Positions 6,111 to 46,017 of a stretch of 64,000 bases of DNA are shown here, one piece after another. How positions within the stretch are numbered: the stretch's first letter is position 1; each line of letters starts with the position of its first letter. The position numbers were made by a program, and so were the translations under genes. The DNA comes from Eunapius fragilis (lineage: Eukaryota > Porifera > Demospongiae > Spongillida > Spongillidae). The stretch lies in assembly GCA_963681505.1 (NCBI GenBank), contig OY811973.1, forward strand, positions 5,180,128-5,244,127. Direction: 5' to 3'. The notes beneath the pieces are model-generated. The model made no database searches, was not told where the DNA came from, and saw only the letters and a list, made by a program, of their open reading frames with translations.

Positions 6111-6595
6111 TAAGCCATCCGCTCGTCGGGAGTCTTGTAATGACATTCATAATCGGGGTCAAATCCTATATGAGAGTTACTAACGTAACTCTCGATTATT
6201 CCATTATTTAACTGTACACTCCTACAGATGACAACAATGGTGTCCATGGTGGGGGGTTGTGTTTAGAAACATGTCGATGTCGTTGTCCAGGGTTGCAAAT
6301 ATGTCCTGAGGGGGGTAGTATAAATGCCTGTCCCGGGGTGCTAGCAGATAAAACATAAGCTTGTACTTGGGGGGGGGGGGGGGGGGTGGGAGTGGTAGGG
6401 GTTAGCAGGTATAACATAAGCTTGTCCAGGGGAGATGTAACCAAATAGAAGCTTGTCTGGGGGTATTAAAAGACTTAACAACAAAAGGTGGTTTTATATA
6501 TTGTCCTGGGGGTTACGTTTGCAATTATTGTCATCTCACGGTTGTTTGCGGCTGGAAACTAGGTTTATAATTAGAAGGTTACGGTACCTGTCCAA

Positions 6596-6994
6596 ATGAT
6601 TGTGAAGAAACACCACATTACAGACACCTTATGTTTCAGAGCTCATAACACCTCAGATCAGCAGCAAAAATATATACTTATTTGTAGCATACAACACAAC
6701 GTTTCAACCACTTTTATTTATAATGAATACGCATTTTTTAAATCGCACATGAAATTTATGCGCAAGCAGTGTTTACATCGCCACGCGGCACTTATTTTGG
6801 AAGGGCGTGTACAAGATCGGATATTGTGGACTTCCTGCACAACGGTTGGAGGTAAGACTAGGCTTTTCGTAAGTCAAAGGCATGCCAAAAAAAGAAGTGA
6901 TGACCCACTTCTGTCGACGAATTTTCTGTCGCCCGAAAAGAACCATGTGTATTTTATGAATAATCGATGCGTGTTGTGGTCATTGCGTACATGA
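6596..6994 (+). other. Unrecognised 132-codon open frame upstream of the RAG1-like gene
   Basis: The frame MIVKKHHITDTLCF..VLWSLRT is open for 132 codons with no motif I recognise. A GT..AG pair at 6852 and 7000 could be a 5'-leader intron of the gene at 7010, but joining across it does not keep this frame in phase with that gene. It could be leader sequence or chance. Confidence 0.25.
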
Positions 6995-7009
6995 ACATAG
7001 GTTACAAGA

Positions 7010-10000
7010 ATGGACTACCACATTAAACATCTGCCGCTGCACTGCAGAGTATGTGGGCAAAGGCTGATGACAAGGAAGCATAAAAAGGAGATCCACGAAT
7101 GCAAAGCATTTGCAGCTGATTTGCAAATTGCCTTTTCTATTAACACCAAGACTGATAATGCTCAAGTGTACCCTGAACACTTCTGCCATTGCTGTTACCA
7201 TACAATGCAGAGGATCATCCGTGCCAGGGTAGGAGGAGTGCACCACAGGTGTGCCCTGACACCATTTGTATGGGAAGCACATACCAATGAAGGGTGTAAG
7301 GTACATACTACATGTATATGCTTTTATGCAACATCATCAGTATAAATCATACCACAGGTGTGTGAGCATTTCAGTTTCAATGCAAAAGGTCCAGTTAGGA
7401 AGCATACAGTTGGCAGAGGTCGTCAACCTGGCCTCACACCGAACATGTTAATTGCCCATCTTTGGAAGATTGCCCCTCCTCCAATCTTCTCAAGTGAGCC
7501 ATACCCACCACTGGCCGGCCAAAACAGTGCCACTGTCCTGAAGGAGTTGAAGTGTATGGTGTGTTCAAACATTCTCAAACAGCCCCTTGAACTGCCATGC
7601 CGTCAGCTGGCCTGTACCAGCTGTGTTGTGGAGCGAGTAGCAGCATCAACCCCAGTGTGTCCTTGCTGCTCGGAAGATAGCTCCTTGGTACCCACAGAGA
7701 TAAGACCAGCACCAAATGCTGTATTGCTCTTGTTGAAGGATGTACTGGTACAATGTGTGGAGTGCCACAGGGATATGAAGGCTGGCTGTTACGATGGGCA
7801 CGAGTGCACACCATATCTCACTGCTGGTGAGGAGAGAGAAGCAGCCACACTGCTGAAGAGGGCCATCTCCACCAGCCCCGATCAAGCAGGCATAATACAA
7901 CTGCCTACAGGAGGAACAGTTAAGTGTATTCAATCTCACTTACATTGTTATGACATACTAAACCATACCTTGTAGCCAATGACTTCATGCATGTGACCAA
8001 AGCCCGCCACCTGACCTCAGCTGCTTGTTCCAAGACTGTGAAGACAAGGCGTGCAGAGATGCACACAGCCAGAAGCATTGTCAGTGGAGGAGAGCCATCT
8101 GCCCTGATGGAGGAGGAGGTACTCACTCTGAGTGATGAAGAGAGGATGTCTCTATTGCAGAAGGCAGGCATCACAAACATTGCAATCGACTCTGTCCAAG
8201 TATTGGCCATAAAAGTCGGCATGGCTATTCCCTGGAACGGTTTGAGACAACTTAGACGGTAAAGCATTACACAAAAACTGTAAAAATAACCTACATATGC
8301 ATTACTTGTCTAGGTGGCTTAAAGCGTCAGGAGTATCTCTAGCTGGGGAGCAGCGGATGCGCAACATTTGCAGGCAAATTGTGGGCGACAACTTAAAAGG
8401 AGAGATGGCTCTATTTTCATTTCCTCATCCTTCTGGTGGTGAAGAGCTTAGGGGAGCTCCTCTGGTTTATATTCCAGATCTGGTTCAGAAGGTTGTTGAC
8501 CTCTTGGAAGAGAATGAAAGGTTAATTAGGAGGTCAAGGCATAAACCTTGCAAAATAATTTTAACCCTATGTAGGACAGGACGGCTTACCTGGCATGATG
8601 GGGTCATCCCTGCCAGTGAGGTGTGGTTAAAAATAGGAGGGGACAAAGGAGGCGGTTCGTTCAAGATGAACTTTCAGATTGTAAATGTTCCAGCGCCTAA
8701 CTCAGTCCACAACACCTGTGTGTTTTGCTGCTTTGAAGCGGGCGACACTGTTACCAACCTCCACATAGCACTTGACCGCTATAAAGATCAAGTTGCACAT
8801 CTGCAAGGAATGAAATGGAGGTAAGAACAGTTAATATAAAATGATTTTAAAAATGAACATTAAACCTACAGGCAATACACACTCAGGCTGTTCATGTGTG
8901 GAGACTACGAGTTCATTACTAGAATGTACGGGCTGTCAGGAGCAAGTGGTATGTGACTATTTGCATAGGTGCTAAACAAAGTGTACAAACATTGCACCTT
9001 TCTTATAGGATGCTACCCATGTTTGTATTGCTTGGCCCACCATCAGCACTTAGTAACACCTCTCTCAGTCAGAGGACCAGCTCCACCCAGAACGTTTGAA
9101 ACTATCAGTGCTGACCATCAGCACTACATTGCTTCAGGGGTTGGCAAGAAACAAGCACAACACTTCTATAACTGCATTTCAGAGCCTATTTTCAACATCC
9201 CCATTTCACAAGTACGTACAAATGAATTTGCCAATAACTGTTTTGTATGATCATGCACATGCACACACACACGCTAGGTATGCCCACCTGGTCTTCACAT
9301 CACTTTGGGCATCTTTACCAAGATTTATGGGTTGCTTGAAGACGAGTGTCATACCCTTGACCTTGAGCTGGCTCTGCACTCAAGAGACGATGCCCACTTC
9401 AGCTTCTCCAATTACAGCCATGAGCTGCAAAGGCTTCGGAAGCTACAAGCAGAGTTGGAGCAAGCCCAGGAGTCATATGATTTGTCACAGCAAATGGCAA
9501 CATATGTATCACTAGTTGTTGGGAAGAATGATCCAGTCACTGTGGATTTCTTCAAGCAATGTGAAGACAAGATGAAATCTCTCAAACAACTTGTATGCCA
9601 TGCATGCAGTATAAAATGTGTATTGACACACCAATCACACTAGGAAACAGATGTAGCCAACTGCACAGCCACAGTGAAGAAGGGATTTTCGATCAAAGAC
9701 GGCCCCTTTGTTAAGGAGCTGGACTCTGCACTGCAGTCCATAGGAGTACATCGCCAGCAATATTTTGGAGGTGCCTTTGTGGGCAATCATGTACACAAAA
9801 CTCTAAAGGTACTAAAAATCTAAGTTTAGAAGTAGTGATCATGCAACTTCTTCACTTTACAGCTATCCAATATCCAGACACTGTGCAAGTCACTAGTTCA
9901 AACTGCACAAAACAGATTGCCCCATCGCGTTGTAGAGCTACAACAGCGTACCAACATTCTGGTCAATACATTTTGCATGTTTGCTACCTGCCACAACATA

Positions 10001-10411
10001 TATGACCAGAATTTCATTGATGAAGCACAAACCTTTGCTCTAGGTGAGTACATTTTTATGATTTCATATGAACTCAAGACTATACAATTGATTTCTACAG
10101 AACAAGCCATTGAACAGTTTATGGCGTACTTCCGGAAGTCCTTTCCAGAGGCAACAGTCCCCATTAAGATGCATATCCTGGAGGATCATGCTACTACATG
10201 GGCTAATTTTACACACGTTGGATTTGGCCTGCTAGGCGAACAGGGGGCTGAGTCCATCCATGCCAAATTTACACGACTTGGCTTAGCCTACACAGCAGTT
10301 ACTGACAAAGTAAAGCATTTGCTGTGCATTGTCAAAGAACACTTAATAAGCATTTCCCCACAAGTTTTAGCTGCCGTCCCCCCTCCACAAAAGAAGAAAA
10401 AAAAAATTTAA
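7010..10411 (+). CDS. RAG1L: RAG1-like protein: N-terminal zinc region, RING finger and transposase-like core
   Basis: Ten exons join in phase: 7010-7300, 7358-7925, 7976-8258, 8314-8820, 8872-8948, 9009-9211, 9278-9592, 9644-9808, 9863-10043, 10101-10411, giving 966 aa. Introns are 49-66 bp. Residues 12-62 form a zinc region (CRVCG, FCHCC). About 88-99 is WEAHTNEGCKVC. A basic GRGRQPG follows at 116-122. A RING finger occupies 163-201 with exact C-x2-C-x11-C-x-Q-x2-C-x2-C-x11-C-x2-C spacing; Gln180 stands where His is expected. A second finger lies near 226-245. The core has D491 (GGDKGGGSFK), D561 (CGDYEF), C580/C583, H888/H893 and E914 (GEQGAESIH). As I recall mouse RAG1 (D708, C727/C730, H937/H942, E962), the D-x18-C-x2-C and H-x4-H spacings are identical. 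A helical, coiled-coil-like stretch follows at about 670-720. The likely role is a DNA transposase or a domesticated one. No terminal repeats or RAG2 partner were recognised. The second exon junction (7925/7976) is the least certain. Confidence 0.85.
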
Positions 10412-11824
10412 TCCTCACTCACATACGTCTTCAAACTGTGCAGATCATTTATTGAGGTGTCTTCGTCATCATCCGTTAGCTAGGTGTACGCATGGGCCAT
10501 GCCATGCAGGCAGTTGACTGCTAGCTACAGCTCCAAACCCTTCAGAGAACAGGAAAATATGATACAGGATATATTAACATAACTTTTTACCCTTCCATAT
10601 GACCCTACCTTCTGCCCCAGGCAATAAGTACGCGCGAAATAACCAAAAAAATGGCGATTTTCAAGGCGTTTGAACATTACTTCAGAAAATTCGTCGACAC
10701 ACGCCTTTAGTAGAAACAAGTACAACTATCTACATAGCATACATTTATCGTCGTTGTGTATCCCATCGATGTGCAGGAGAGGCACTATAGTCTTCAGAAC
10801 GTATATAGGTCAGTACGCACTGAAATAAGTACCTCACTTCAAGACACAAACCTGACACCTTTTTGTGCGGTAAGACCACGTGATTGTATATGCCATACGA
10901 AGGTCAGAGGTGTTTCTTAACCACAGTATGGCTTATAGGTGTTTATTGTACAAGGTGTGCTTTGTGTATAGCGCATTCCAAAGGGCATTGGTTGTCCGGT
11001 TCGTTGCTATGGGACAGCAAATCCATTTCAAAATTTTGGGGCGGTGGGCCTAATTTCCACGCGTTCAATGAGAGTAGACAGCCGTGATCTGTAGGTGTGT
11101 ATGGTTAAATAATGGAATAGCCCAAAGCTGCCCCGCCCCCCCCCCCCCCCCCATGCACAATCATGTGTATGGCAGACTACTTAATTCCTATGCAGACACT
11201 GGCAGACAGAGGGGAGCGGGGGATTAGGTCTGCAACCCGAGCACATCTCCCTTTGGTGTCTCTGTCCCTCCAATCCCCCTTTAATTTAATTCTGGATCTG
11301 CCACTGGCTTCACATATATTTATTATCAATGTGCCCCCCGCCAAATCCTGGATCCAGGGCTAATTCCAACCATACATAAAGATTTTTGTTGAGAATAGGA
11401 ATGGCTGCGCTCAAAAGGGTGGTTTAGCTATCTATCACATACACATGCAAACATACACACAACCCACAGCTGGAAAAACAATGTAAGTGCTTGCATACTA
11501 TACATACCACCCACACACGCTCACATACATGTACCTGCAAGTTTCTTACTAAACACTGTTCAATGGCCAGTAACACAAAACAGGATGCCATGGTGATCGA
11601 TGGCATGAAGGCTGGCACTCATCACTCACATACACAATGGCAAAGATGCTGGTGTATGTGTTTAAAATAAAAAACATGTACTACAATCTGGTAAATGGAC
11701 ATACCTTGCTCTAACTATACCTCACAGTAGTGAGCTCTTCATACCTCTTGAGGATACCATGCATCACTTGTGCAACTTCGTTGCCTCCTGAGCGTGGGAT
11801 CCAACAATTTGAGGAAAAGAACCA
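10412..11824. other. Stretch downstream of the RAG1-like gene, no gene seen
   Basis: I see no convincing coding sequence, no Kelch or PHD motif, and no clear inverted copy of sequence upstream of 7010. A C-run lies at 11135-11152. The region near 11210-11350 ends in a phrase (CTGGATCTGCCACTGG) like the borders of the G-run repeats. Confidence 0.5.
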
Positions 11825-11825
11825 T

Positions 11826-11926
11826 GGCCGTACCCAGAGGGGGTTCGTAACCAAGGAAACCTATAAAATTGCTATAGCAATTTTATTGGTTTCCTTGGTT
11901 ACGGAACCCCCTCTGGGTATGGCCCT
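11826..11926. repeat. Short perfect-type fold-back, about 100 bp
   Basis: The left arm (GGCCGTACCCAGAGGGGGTT, then CCAAGGAAACC, AAAATTGC) is followed directly by its reverse complement with almost no loop. It lies immediately upstream of the LINE relic and may have inserted into it. Confidence 0.9.
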
Positions 11927-11936
11927 GAGAACCTAG

Positions 11937-12220
11937 AGTGCTTTTAGAGATGCTATCTGCTTACACTATGGCTGGCAACCTCCATTATTACCATCACATT
12001 GCATATGTGGCTCCATCTATACTGTGGAGCATGCCATGAATTGCCCATCAGGAGGCTTTCCTTCAATTCGACACAATGAGGTGCGAGATCTGACCTCAGT
12101 GAGGTATGTCACAATGCAGAACCGACATGTACTTTGCAGCCATTGCAGAGTGAGTGCCTTACATAAGTCTGCCAATGCAGAGCTAGGAGCAAGAAAAACA
12201 ACGAATTATCTGACCTCTTA
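11937..12220 (+). pseudogene. LINE-type retrotransposon C-terminal fragment
   Basis: The frame reads SAFRDAICLHYGWQPP, then HCICGS with VEHAMNCPSGGFPS and RHNEVRDLT, then EVCHN.EP.C.LQPL. This is the C-terminal zinc-knuckle region I recall from LINE polymerases common in sponge and cnidarian genomes. It keeps C-x-C-G, the VEHA His and the Cys of NCPSGG. There is a small frame disruption near 12100 and a stop shortly after. No reverse-transcriptase core precedes it, so it is a dead, 5'-truncated fragment. A matching later part of the same domain is found at 51090-51395. Confidence 0.75.
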
Positions 12221-13138
12221 ATTGAAAAGTTTACATAACCAATAACAATTCTTCCACATGTCACCACTCCTAATTAAAGAGGCAGTACTTATGAAACCAC
12301 AAAGACTCAGACAGCAGCTAATACAACTACCAGCCCTTCTTCAACTGTCTACATTTGATACATTTGGTACACAAACATACAAACTTGTGTCAACACCATA
12401 CACAACGTCACTGAACAACTTTACAGTCTGCATATACAGTAGCAAGCATTATATGATGAAAACACAAAGCTTTACATTTGAGTAGTGGTTCTCCTGGTGG
12501 AGGTTGGAAGGGTGACTGACACAGTCCATGAGCTACATCACATTGTTCGGTATGATGGATTCAGTCCCTGGTCCATACCAGGCAGTCATGTAGGTAGCCC
12601 ACTGAGCCTGGAACCAGAGCTGCTGGCAGACCACCTGGGTATACCTTCACTCAATCATCAGGAGTTTTTCTGACCAATCTGATGGGAAGAGGGGGGGGGG
12701 GGGGGAGGAGCTCAGAGAGCTTACCAGAAAATCTGACTGGATGTCTTCTCATCACTGCTGCCTCCTCCCCATCAATTCACAGTGATGGGGAGGAGGGACT
12801 AATGGGGAAGAGGGGAACGGTACAGCACAAACAAAAGCCTGACCATCCCTTGAGCAATGTTCTCCACATTGTTATTATCTAGGAGCACATAGGTGGCTCC
12901 ACCATTCTTACTGCAGTGACAATGTGCCAACATATGCTCCGTGTATGGATACAGGTAAAGTGTAGGAGATGTGTGTGCTCCCAATGGGGGGAGGGGGTGG
13001 ACATTTCATCTCCCTTAACTAAAACCACACCTCTTCCTACTTCCTGTAACTAAAATGACTCCACAGGGTCAGGGATTAGAGGAGAGTTTAAAACACTATG
13101 AGTGAGGACCAACGAGTGAAGACCAATACATGTAGGAT
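12221..13138. other. Intergenic stretch, no gene recognised
   Basis: Short frames only, none with a motif I recognise. A G-run is present at 12689-12706. A small inverted pair of CTCCTCCCCATC-type sequence occurs at 12760-12800. Confidence 0.4.
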
Positions 13139-44752: not shown

Positions 44753-45368
44753 GCCAGCACACATTACCCCCATACAATGCTAGCACACATTACCCCCATA
44801 CAATGCTAGCACACATTACCCCCATACAATGCTAGCACACATTACCCCCATACAATGCTAGCACACATTACCCCATACAATGCCAGCACACATTACCCCC
44901 ATACAATGCCAGCACACATTACCCCCATACAATGCCAGCACACATTACCCCCATACAATGCCAGCACACATTACCCCCATACAATGCCAGCACACATTAC
45001 CCCCATACAATGCCAGCACACATTACCCCCATACAATGCTAGCACACATTACCCCCATACAATGCTAGCACACATTACCCCCATACAATGCCAGCACACA
45101 TTACCCCCATACAATGCTAGCACACATTACCCCATACAATGCCAGCACACATTACCCCCATACAATGCTAGCACACATTACCCCCATACAATGCTAGCAC
45201 ACATTACCCCATACAATGCCAGCACACATTACCCCCATACAATGCTAGCACACATTACCCCCATACAATGCCAGCACACATTACCCCCATACAATGCCAG
45301 CACACATTACCCTCATACAATGCCTGCACACATTACCCCATACAATGCCAGCACACATTACCCCATCT
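44753..45368 (+). repeat. 26-bp minisatellite, about 24 units
   Basis: Tandem units of ACACATTACCCCCATACAAT plus GCTAGC or GCCAGC (26 bp, some 25 bp through loss of one C). Two unit types, GCTAGC and GCCAGC, are interspersed. The 179-codon open frame over it is an artefact. It starts 340 bp after the TEX11 stop. Confidence 0.97.
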
Positions 45369-46017
45369 CATGCCAACAAACTCGGTATTACTAATCCACA
45401 AATCCATCTTATTTAATTATGATTCTTTAAATACATGCATAAAATACTAGATCTCATGCCCTGATCAATATCGATTGCAAACTCCAATATTTATATATAC
45501 ACATATATAGGCAAATTTCATATATTGTTACTTATTTGATATGTTGTTATGAACATTAAGAATGGATGGTTACATGATCTGACATGTACATTATTATTAT
45601 TATTTTTAATAATAATAATTATTATTATTGTCAGTTTAGTCCCATAGATATTCTAATCAACAATTGTTCCTGAGCACAACAGCAGTGCCCGTGCATCGGC
45701 TCACATCAAGGTAATACTAAGTCTGCCATATAATTGGCAGATGGCATGTGACTTGGAGTGGTTTCCCCTGGTGGCTAGGCGAGATAAGGTCTGCATGTCT
45801 TCTGCACCCCTACACCCATATGTCTTTGCTCTAAGCATTTGGCTCTATTAGAGTTGTGCTTGCACACCTCGGCTGCCAGAGCTGCAGATCAGTCCACCCA
45901 TCACACTCGCTTCCTTAAAGTACTTAGATGTGACGGTCAGATCCAAGGCTGCTGGTTTGCCCCAATCCCAATGAGGAATGAAAATGTCAGCTGGTCGTGT
46001 TCAATGTCCTTCATGCC
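45369..46017. other. AT-rich spacer, no gene recognised
   Basis: Contains an imperfect TTATTATTATT/AATAATAATAAT inverted pair near 45590-45630. A 90-codon frame at 45839 has no motif I know. Its end overlaps the repeat at 46018 and shares the SLGAHGLYESSQCTY phrase. Confidence 0.45.

Follow-up and report, generated by a model that had tools for sequence, protein, structure and literature searches.

Introduction

RING-finger Chapaev transposons were reportedly first described by Kapitonov and Jurka in 2007. In the account of Kapitonov and Koonin (2015), the Chapa domain occurs in a group of Chapaev elements from the lancelet and the starlet sea anemone, and in two Chapaev subgroups, whose species go unnamed in the text, it is followed by a RING finger; their tree includes Hydra and Nematostella (PMC4411706). 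In the view of the same authors, the fusion of Chapa, RING and core goes back to an ancestor shared by Chapaev, Transib and RAG1 (PMC4411706). Here we describe a transposon that very probably belongs to this circle, in a 64,000-nucleotide (nt) stretch of the genome of the freshwater sponge Eunapius fragilis (GenBank assembly GCA_963681505.1, contig OY811973.1; C3:5180128-5244127 in our coordinates), hereafter the window. Its single recognised gene had been taken, from the letters alone, for an apparently intact RAG1-like gene in a probable sponge genome (the original prediction). The host is indeed a sponge.

Chapaev transposases are the proteins of the Pfam family DUF1280, which shares a small clade of the RNase H-like superfamily with RAG1 (PMC3985635). 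The hallmarks given for Chapaev are target duplications of 3–4 base pairs (bp) and invariable CAC/GTG ends, with TWA 3-bp duplications in Chapaev3 (PMC4079192). The sponge element has the same CAC...GTG ends and a duplication of the same size class. Like the RING-bearing Chapaevs, as these are described, it joins a zinc region, putatively of Chapa type, a RING and a DDE core in one transposase (PMC4411706); it differs in its sponge host and its ten short introns, the comparison being with published descriptions.

The other relevant systems share less. Vertebrate RAG1, the antibody-recombining enzyme, has the N-terminal zinc region, the RING and C2H2 finger, and the D-to-CxxC and H-x4-H layout in common with the sponge protein, whereas the sponge core has no match to the RAG1 core model PF12940, belongs to a mobile element with its own ends, and has no RAG2 partner that we could find. 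RAGL/ProtoRAG transposons also encode RAG1-like N-terminal zinc motifs; they are described as carrying a RAG1L–RAG2L pair and making 5-bp duplications, whereas the sponge element has one gene and a 4-bp duplication (PMC7204232). The RAG1L of A. aurita is described there without a RING region (PMC7204232). Transib belongs to the same wider clade, in which CA...TG ends prevail (PMC12730594). In contrast to the sponge element, the canonical Transib is described as a core with no other identifiable domain (PMC4411706) and as producing 5-bp rather than 4-bp duplications (PMC7204232). The N-RAG-TP of Aplysia likewise carries RAG1 N-terminal-like sequence within a transposon but is described as consisting of such sequence entirely, where the sponge element adds a DDE core (PMC8355894); the N-RAG-TP view is restated in PMC13337447.

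Results

The gene lies in a transposon with defined ends and an empty site

The gene is enclosed by a DNA transposon with CACGG...CCGTG ends, flanked on both sides by ATCT (Table 1). The insert starts with CACGGTTGT and finishes with ACAGCCGTG, and lies within a repeat that occurs elsewhere in the genome. A 71-bp probe from this host repeat gave at least 40 matches (40 of 297 candidates scored), 39 of them besides the window, and 11 of these copies were fetched and read. All 11 carry the empty site TTATTGTC-ATCT-GTAGGTG, with a single ATCT and no insert. Once joined, the window flanks were 90–95% identical to the 11 empty copies, over the whole 300 bp in ten cases and over 282 bp in one. These comparisons demonstrate the insertion of an element with defined ends into a repeat, 4 bp of which were duplicated. 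The ends, the target duplication and the empty site are all additions to the original prediction.

We also read the ends of the ten other transposon copies that had both ends among the listed genome matches to the left and right end. Exact 4-bp duplications (ACTA, CCTC, GTTT, CCCC and GATA) were present at five of them. Sites of 4 bp fit Chapaev elements outside Chapaev3. A perfect 17-nt inverted repeat lies ∼380 bp inside each end of the window element; among 20 loci examined it was matched with one to three mismatches in five and had no match in the other 15. It is a possible transposase site.

The host repeat is present in high copy number and has an internal inverted repeat of ∼42 bp; to the left of 6194 the match to it persists in only one of the 11 copies. 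The 36-nt inverted repeat 6197–6232/11084–11119 was considered as a pair of transposon ends and rejected, being part of the host repeat found without the insert.

Inside the transposon there are 15 stop-to-stop frames of at least 80 amino acids (aa). The eight that contain no exon gave no credible Pfam match, and none is a RAG2-like (kelch) frame. One 139-aa open frame (6575–6991), in the 5′ region upstream of the gene, has no credible Pfam match and is probably non-coding.

The transposase gene contains a probable missed intron

The original prediction joined ten exons without a stop into a 966-aa protein, and 7010–10411 does splice exactly so, with nine GT–AG introns of 50–66 bp. However, 8521–8574 has the form GT...AG in the window and in all ten aligned genomic copies, where its length is 48–59 bp and, in nine of the ten, not a multiple of three. 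The segment is very probably an intron, which had been read as an exon because its 54 bp contain no stop. Its removal gives 11 exons, ten short introns and a 948-aa protein. The match to DUF1280 (PF06918), which spans the new junction, rises from 46.3 bits (E 5.2e-12) to 51.2 bits (E 1.7e-13) against a cut-off of 25, and this gain supports the correction. On the evidence of these alignments, the 948-aa protein in 11 exons is more likely than the 966-aa protein in ten.

The residues D491, D561, C580/C583, H888/H893 and E914 were exactly where they had been placed in the 966-aa model; they become D473, D543, C562/C565, H870/H875 and E896, and the spacings quoted for them are unchanged. The DDE, CxxC and H-x4-H set is complete.

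The front half resembles RAG1 and the core matches DUF1280

For aa 155–246, covering the RING and the next finger, the closest solved structures are those of RAG1. A single-sequence search of the PDB gave E 1.6e-6 for 1rmd (RAG1) and 0.0016 for RNF168, and a profile search gave 1.3e-7 for 6oem (RAG1, over aa 4–246) and 1.2e-5 for 3jbw (RAG1). The claim of a RAG1-type N-terminal half is borne out by these matches. The preceding zinc region scored 26.4 bits with PF12560, the RAG1 importin-binding zinc region, when the N-terminal part was searched alone, but 21.2 bits, short of the 23.3 cut-off, when the full-length protein was searched; two of the four aligned family members matched at E 1, the model used being that of RAG1 and not of Chapa. 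By sequence, the front half resembles RAG1 weakly in the zinc region and clearly in the RING/C2H2 region. A structure prediction for the latter (window 7508–7831, one sequence) had a mean pLDDT of 48 and was not used.

The core behaves differently. DUF1280 was found in all four aligned family members from the genome. PF12940 had no match at E 10 in the joined protein or either half, nor at E 1 in the four members; it also had no match in the whole genome, but 14 controls were equally silent there. No RAG1, RAG1L or Transib core was among the best 60 of 90 PDB matches by sequence or the best 60 of 99 by profile. The first and second Asp are 70 residues apart, as against 108 in RAG1. What speaks for a RAG1/RAGL-family gene (the RAG1L of a RAG-like transposon, in which core and N-terminus would both be of RAG1 type) is the RAG1-like zinc region, RING and C2H2 finger, together with the D-to-CxxC spacing of 19 and the H-x4-H motif, which agree with those that the original prediction quoted for RAG1. 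The argument from the CxxC/H motifs is weak because they are common across a wider clade: CxxC with H-x3-4-H is listed for EnSpm, Mirage, Chapaev, Transib, Plavaka and RAG1 (PMC12730594).

Numerous related copies share the gene structure

The searched genome comprises 218,937,333 bases in 24 contigs. The protein matches at least 154 stretches (47 of 1936 candidates scored), these being stretches and not elements. The left end matches at least 42 stretches (40 of 193 candidates scored), the right end at least 41 (40 of 172) and DUF1280 at least 131 (150 of 168). In the 18 copies onto which the gene was projected, the window protein is 60–77% identical to the others over matched columns, and the most similar pair of copies is 99.6% identical over 750 codons.

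Among those projected copies that cover the column in question, the first Asp is kept in 13 of 15, the second in 13 of 13, the first Cys in 13 of 15, the second in 14 of 15, each His in 8 of 8 and the Glu in 7 of 7, although intron-flanking columns are not reliable. Of the two copies lacking the first Asp, one looks frameshifted at that point.

The ratio of nonsynonymous to synonymous divergence (dN/dS) against the window copy was 0.16–0.20 for seven of the 18 copies, with 0.16–0.21 for the N-terminal part and 0.12–0.19 for the core; these are rough values, since stops and low-identity columns were removed first, which depresses the ratio, and since synonymous sites have diverged strongly (0.86–1.76). 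The N-terminal and core halves are under like constraint. The original prediction would have been undone if the two halves were separate genes; the like constraint, and an exon order that is the same in the genomic copies as in the window, argue against this.

Internally deleted relatives are also present: L037 and L049 (G000:C5:6473036-6475920), as well as L046–L048, L050 and L052. The deleted copy on C5, ∼2.9 kb long, retains its two ends and is flanked by a GATA duplication, which is what a non-autonomous derivative would look like. A DUF1280 relative at G000:C12:711768-711968 is listed with a 622-aa open frame and perhaps has few introns. Outside the sponge genome, no relatives were confirmed among 12 pattern-matched prokaryotic and 91 viral contig stretches, collections that are uninformative on animals.

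Probable assignment to the Chapaev superfamily

The element combines CAC...GTG termini, a 4-bp duplication where 3–4 bp would be expected, a DUF1280 core and the DDE, CxxC and H-x3-4-H residues, all traits of Chapaev. We put the probability at roughly 90% that the window gene is the transposase of an apparently intact, autonomous cut-and-paste DNA transposon of the Chapaev superfamily. The 948-aa product would, with very much the same assurance, be the only recognised gene of the element and consist of a Chapa-type zinc region, a RAG1-like RING and C2H2 finger, and a DUF1280-type D-D-(CxxC)-(HxxxxH)-E core. The reservation in the original prediction that the core could belong to a sister family is favoured by the DUF1280 match, the silence of PF12940 in the protein, the 4-bp duplication and the CAC...GTG ends.

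Several points weigh against this assignment. Membership is argued from the DUF1280 model, from the ends and the length of the duplication, and from statements in the literature, and the DUF1280 match is confined to some 100 residues around the first Asp. Five of the ten end-read copies lack an exact duplication (in three, one of the four letters differs; in two, the left end is damaged), and the CCCC duplication is weak evidence, as it adjoins a C run. In the profile search, RNF168 came close behind RAG1, at 2.1e-5 over the RING alone. An hhalign comparison of a shallow profile of the sponge copies (Neff 1.4) with a single RAG1 core sequence gave no credible alignment, a result that is uninformative on kinship between the sponge core and the RAG1 core.

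A gene derived from a Chapaev transposase, domesticated and kept intact for service to the host, would also show an intact open frame with its catalytic residues and a low dN/dS, and no near-identical second copy of the window gene was present among the 18 compared. It is nevertheless an improbable reading: both terminal repeats, the perfect target duplication and the empty site are still there, and a low dN/dS, here from filtered columns, is equally expected of a recently active transposon family.

We think it similarly improbable that the element is a CACTA, Mirage, Transib or other member of the CMC clade and not a Chapaev proper. The CA...TG ends and the CxxC/HxxxxH motifs, described as clade-wide, would suit such an element (PMC12730594); Transib in particular is disfavoured by the presence of N-terminal domains and by a duplication of 4 bp, not 5 bp.

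The RAG1/RAGL alternative is the least probable of all, having only the RAG1-type front half and the shared motif spacings on its side, against the unmatched PF12940, the PDB and hhalign results, the Asp-to-Asp distance, a duplication of 4 rather than 5 bp and the lack of a convergent RAG2-like gene among the frames of the element. A RAG1 gene proper was rejected, with no PF12940 match and no RAG1 core among the PDB matches listed. Of the idea of a RAG1-like gene, what stands is a single gene with a RAG1-like front half and a DDE-type core; with a DUF1280 core and no PF12940 match, that gene would be the transposase of a Chapaev element.

Other features of the window

To the right of the transposon, a 94-aa frame (11937–12221) has no Pfam match and a cysteine/histidine pattern reminiscent of the tail of non-LTR retrotransposon proteins. 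At 44810–45394 there is a long tandem repeat frame of low complexity, made up of HTLPPYNAS units.

Table 1. Coordinates of the transposon, its gene and the surrounding host repeat within the window
Feature	Position	Strand	Evidence or remark
Host repeat, left part; contains 36-nt inverted arm 6197–6232	6194..6536	+	repeat occurs without the insert
Target site duplication ATCT, left copy	6533..6536	.	single ATCT at empty site, 11/11 copies
Probable Chapaev-type DNA transposon, CACGG...CCGTG termini, 4,550 bp	6537..11086	+	empty site in 11/11 other repeat copies
Left terminal inverted repeat CACGGTTGT	6537..6545	+	CAC start in 8/10 other copies examined
17-nt subterminal inverted repeat, left arm	6912..6928	+	full complement of 10683–10699; putative transposase site
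Exon 1: cysteine-rich start and most of RAG1 importin-binding-like (Chapa-type) zinc region	7010..7300	+	
Exon 2: end of zinc region, RING, C2H2-like finger	7358..7925	+	
RING finger, aa 157–203	7535..7675	+	top match RAG1 (6oem, 1rmd), next RNF168
C2H2-like finger after RING, aa 228–247	7748..7807	+	RAG1 alignment extends to aa 246
Exon 3	7976..8258	+	
Exon 4 (revised)	8314..8520	+	copy alignment
Pfam DUF1280 match, aa 429–526, split by intron	8456..8803	+	E 1.7e-13, 51.2 bits, cut-off 25
Probable intron, 54 bp, no stop	8521..8574	+	GT...AG in window and 10/10 copies
Exon 5 (revised); first catalytic Asp D473 at 8642–8644	8575..8820	+	
Exon 6; second Asp D543 at 8903–8905	8872..8948	+	
Exon 7; CxxC C562/C565	9009..9211	+	
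Exon 8	9278..9592	+	
Exon 9	9644..9808	+	
Exon 10	9863..10043	+	
Exon 11; H870 (10172–10174), H875 (10187–10189), E896 (10250–10252), stop	10101..10411	+	
17-nt subterminal inverted repeat, right arm	10683..10699	-	full complement of 6912–6928
Right terminal inverted repeat (CACGGCTGT on - strand)	11078..11086	-	GTG end in 9/10 and CCGTG end in 8/10 other copies examined
Target site duplication ATCT, right copy	11087..11090	.	empty-site comparison
Host repeat, right part; true edge may be further right	11087..12316	+	repeat-copy alignment

Discussion

The likely mode of action of the transposase can be outlined by analogy with the known chemistry of CMC, Transib and RAG systems. The protein would bind the CACGGYTGT ends, and perhaps the subterminal repeats, and pair both ends of the element. 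D473, D543 and E896 would hold the metal ions and direct cutting at the CAC/GTG ends, and the cut ends would then be joined to the target with a 4-bp stagger. Within the core, the CxxC/HxxxxH set would bind zinc. The RING/C2H2 region probably dimerises the transposase, a role named for the corresponding region of RAG1 (PMC7204232), and might also transfer ubiquitin as a ligase, an activity stated for RAG1 (PMC4411706).

The original prediction had suggested that the locus may record an arrangement of N-terminus plus core outside Bilateria. The arrangement itself stands, and its novelty is weakened by the published Chapa domains of lancelet and sea anemone Chapaevs and the RING of two Chapaev subgroups (PMC4411706). 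The full layout of Chapa, RING and core may or may not have been known already from outside Bilateria. Genes with a DUF1280 domain have been counted in Hydra and other cnidarians (PMC7642931). In the literature searched, whose coverage leaves out most subscription journals and Repbase Reports, we found no RING-bearing Chapaev from a sponge; in PMC4298943, the word 'sponge' stands for a transposon called Spongebob.

The occurrence in a sponge of a Chapaev with both Chapa and RING raises the idea that the fusion of a RAG1 front half to a CMC/Transib-type core was already present in the last common animal ancestor and was inherited vertically. If true, so early a fusion would support the RAG1 N-terminus being ancestral and lost in Transib, rather than gained later from an N-RAG-TP-like element. 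We regard this history as unlikely on present evidence. Horizontal transfer of Chapaev elements has been published (PMC4079192), and the sponge record alone therefore cannot date the fusion.

The sponge element is a further example of a layout already described for the Chapaev group, and not a RAG1 gene. As a RING-bearing Chapaev from a sponge it is clearly delimited: its ends are defined, its empty site is documented, and its host genome contains many relatives. It could serve to test the function of a RAG1-type front half attached to a Chapaev core. It also documents a wider animal range for the layout that preceded RAG1.

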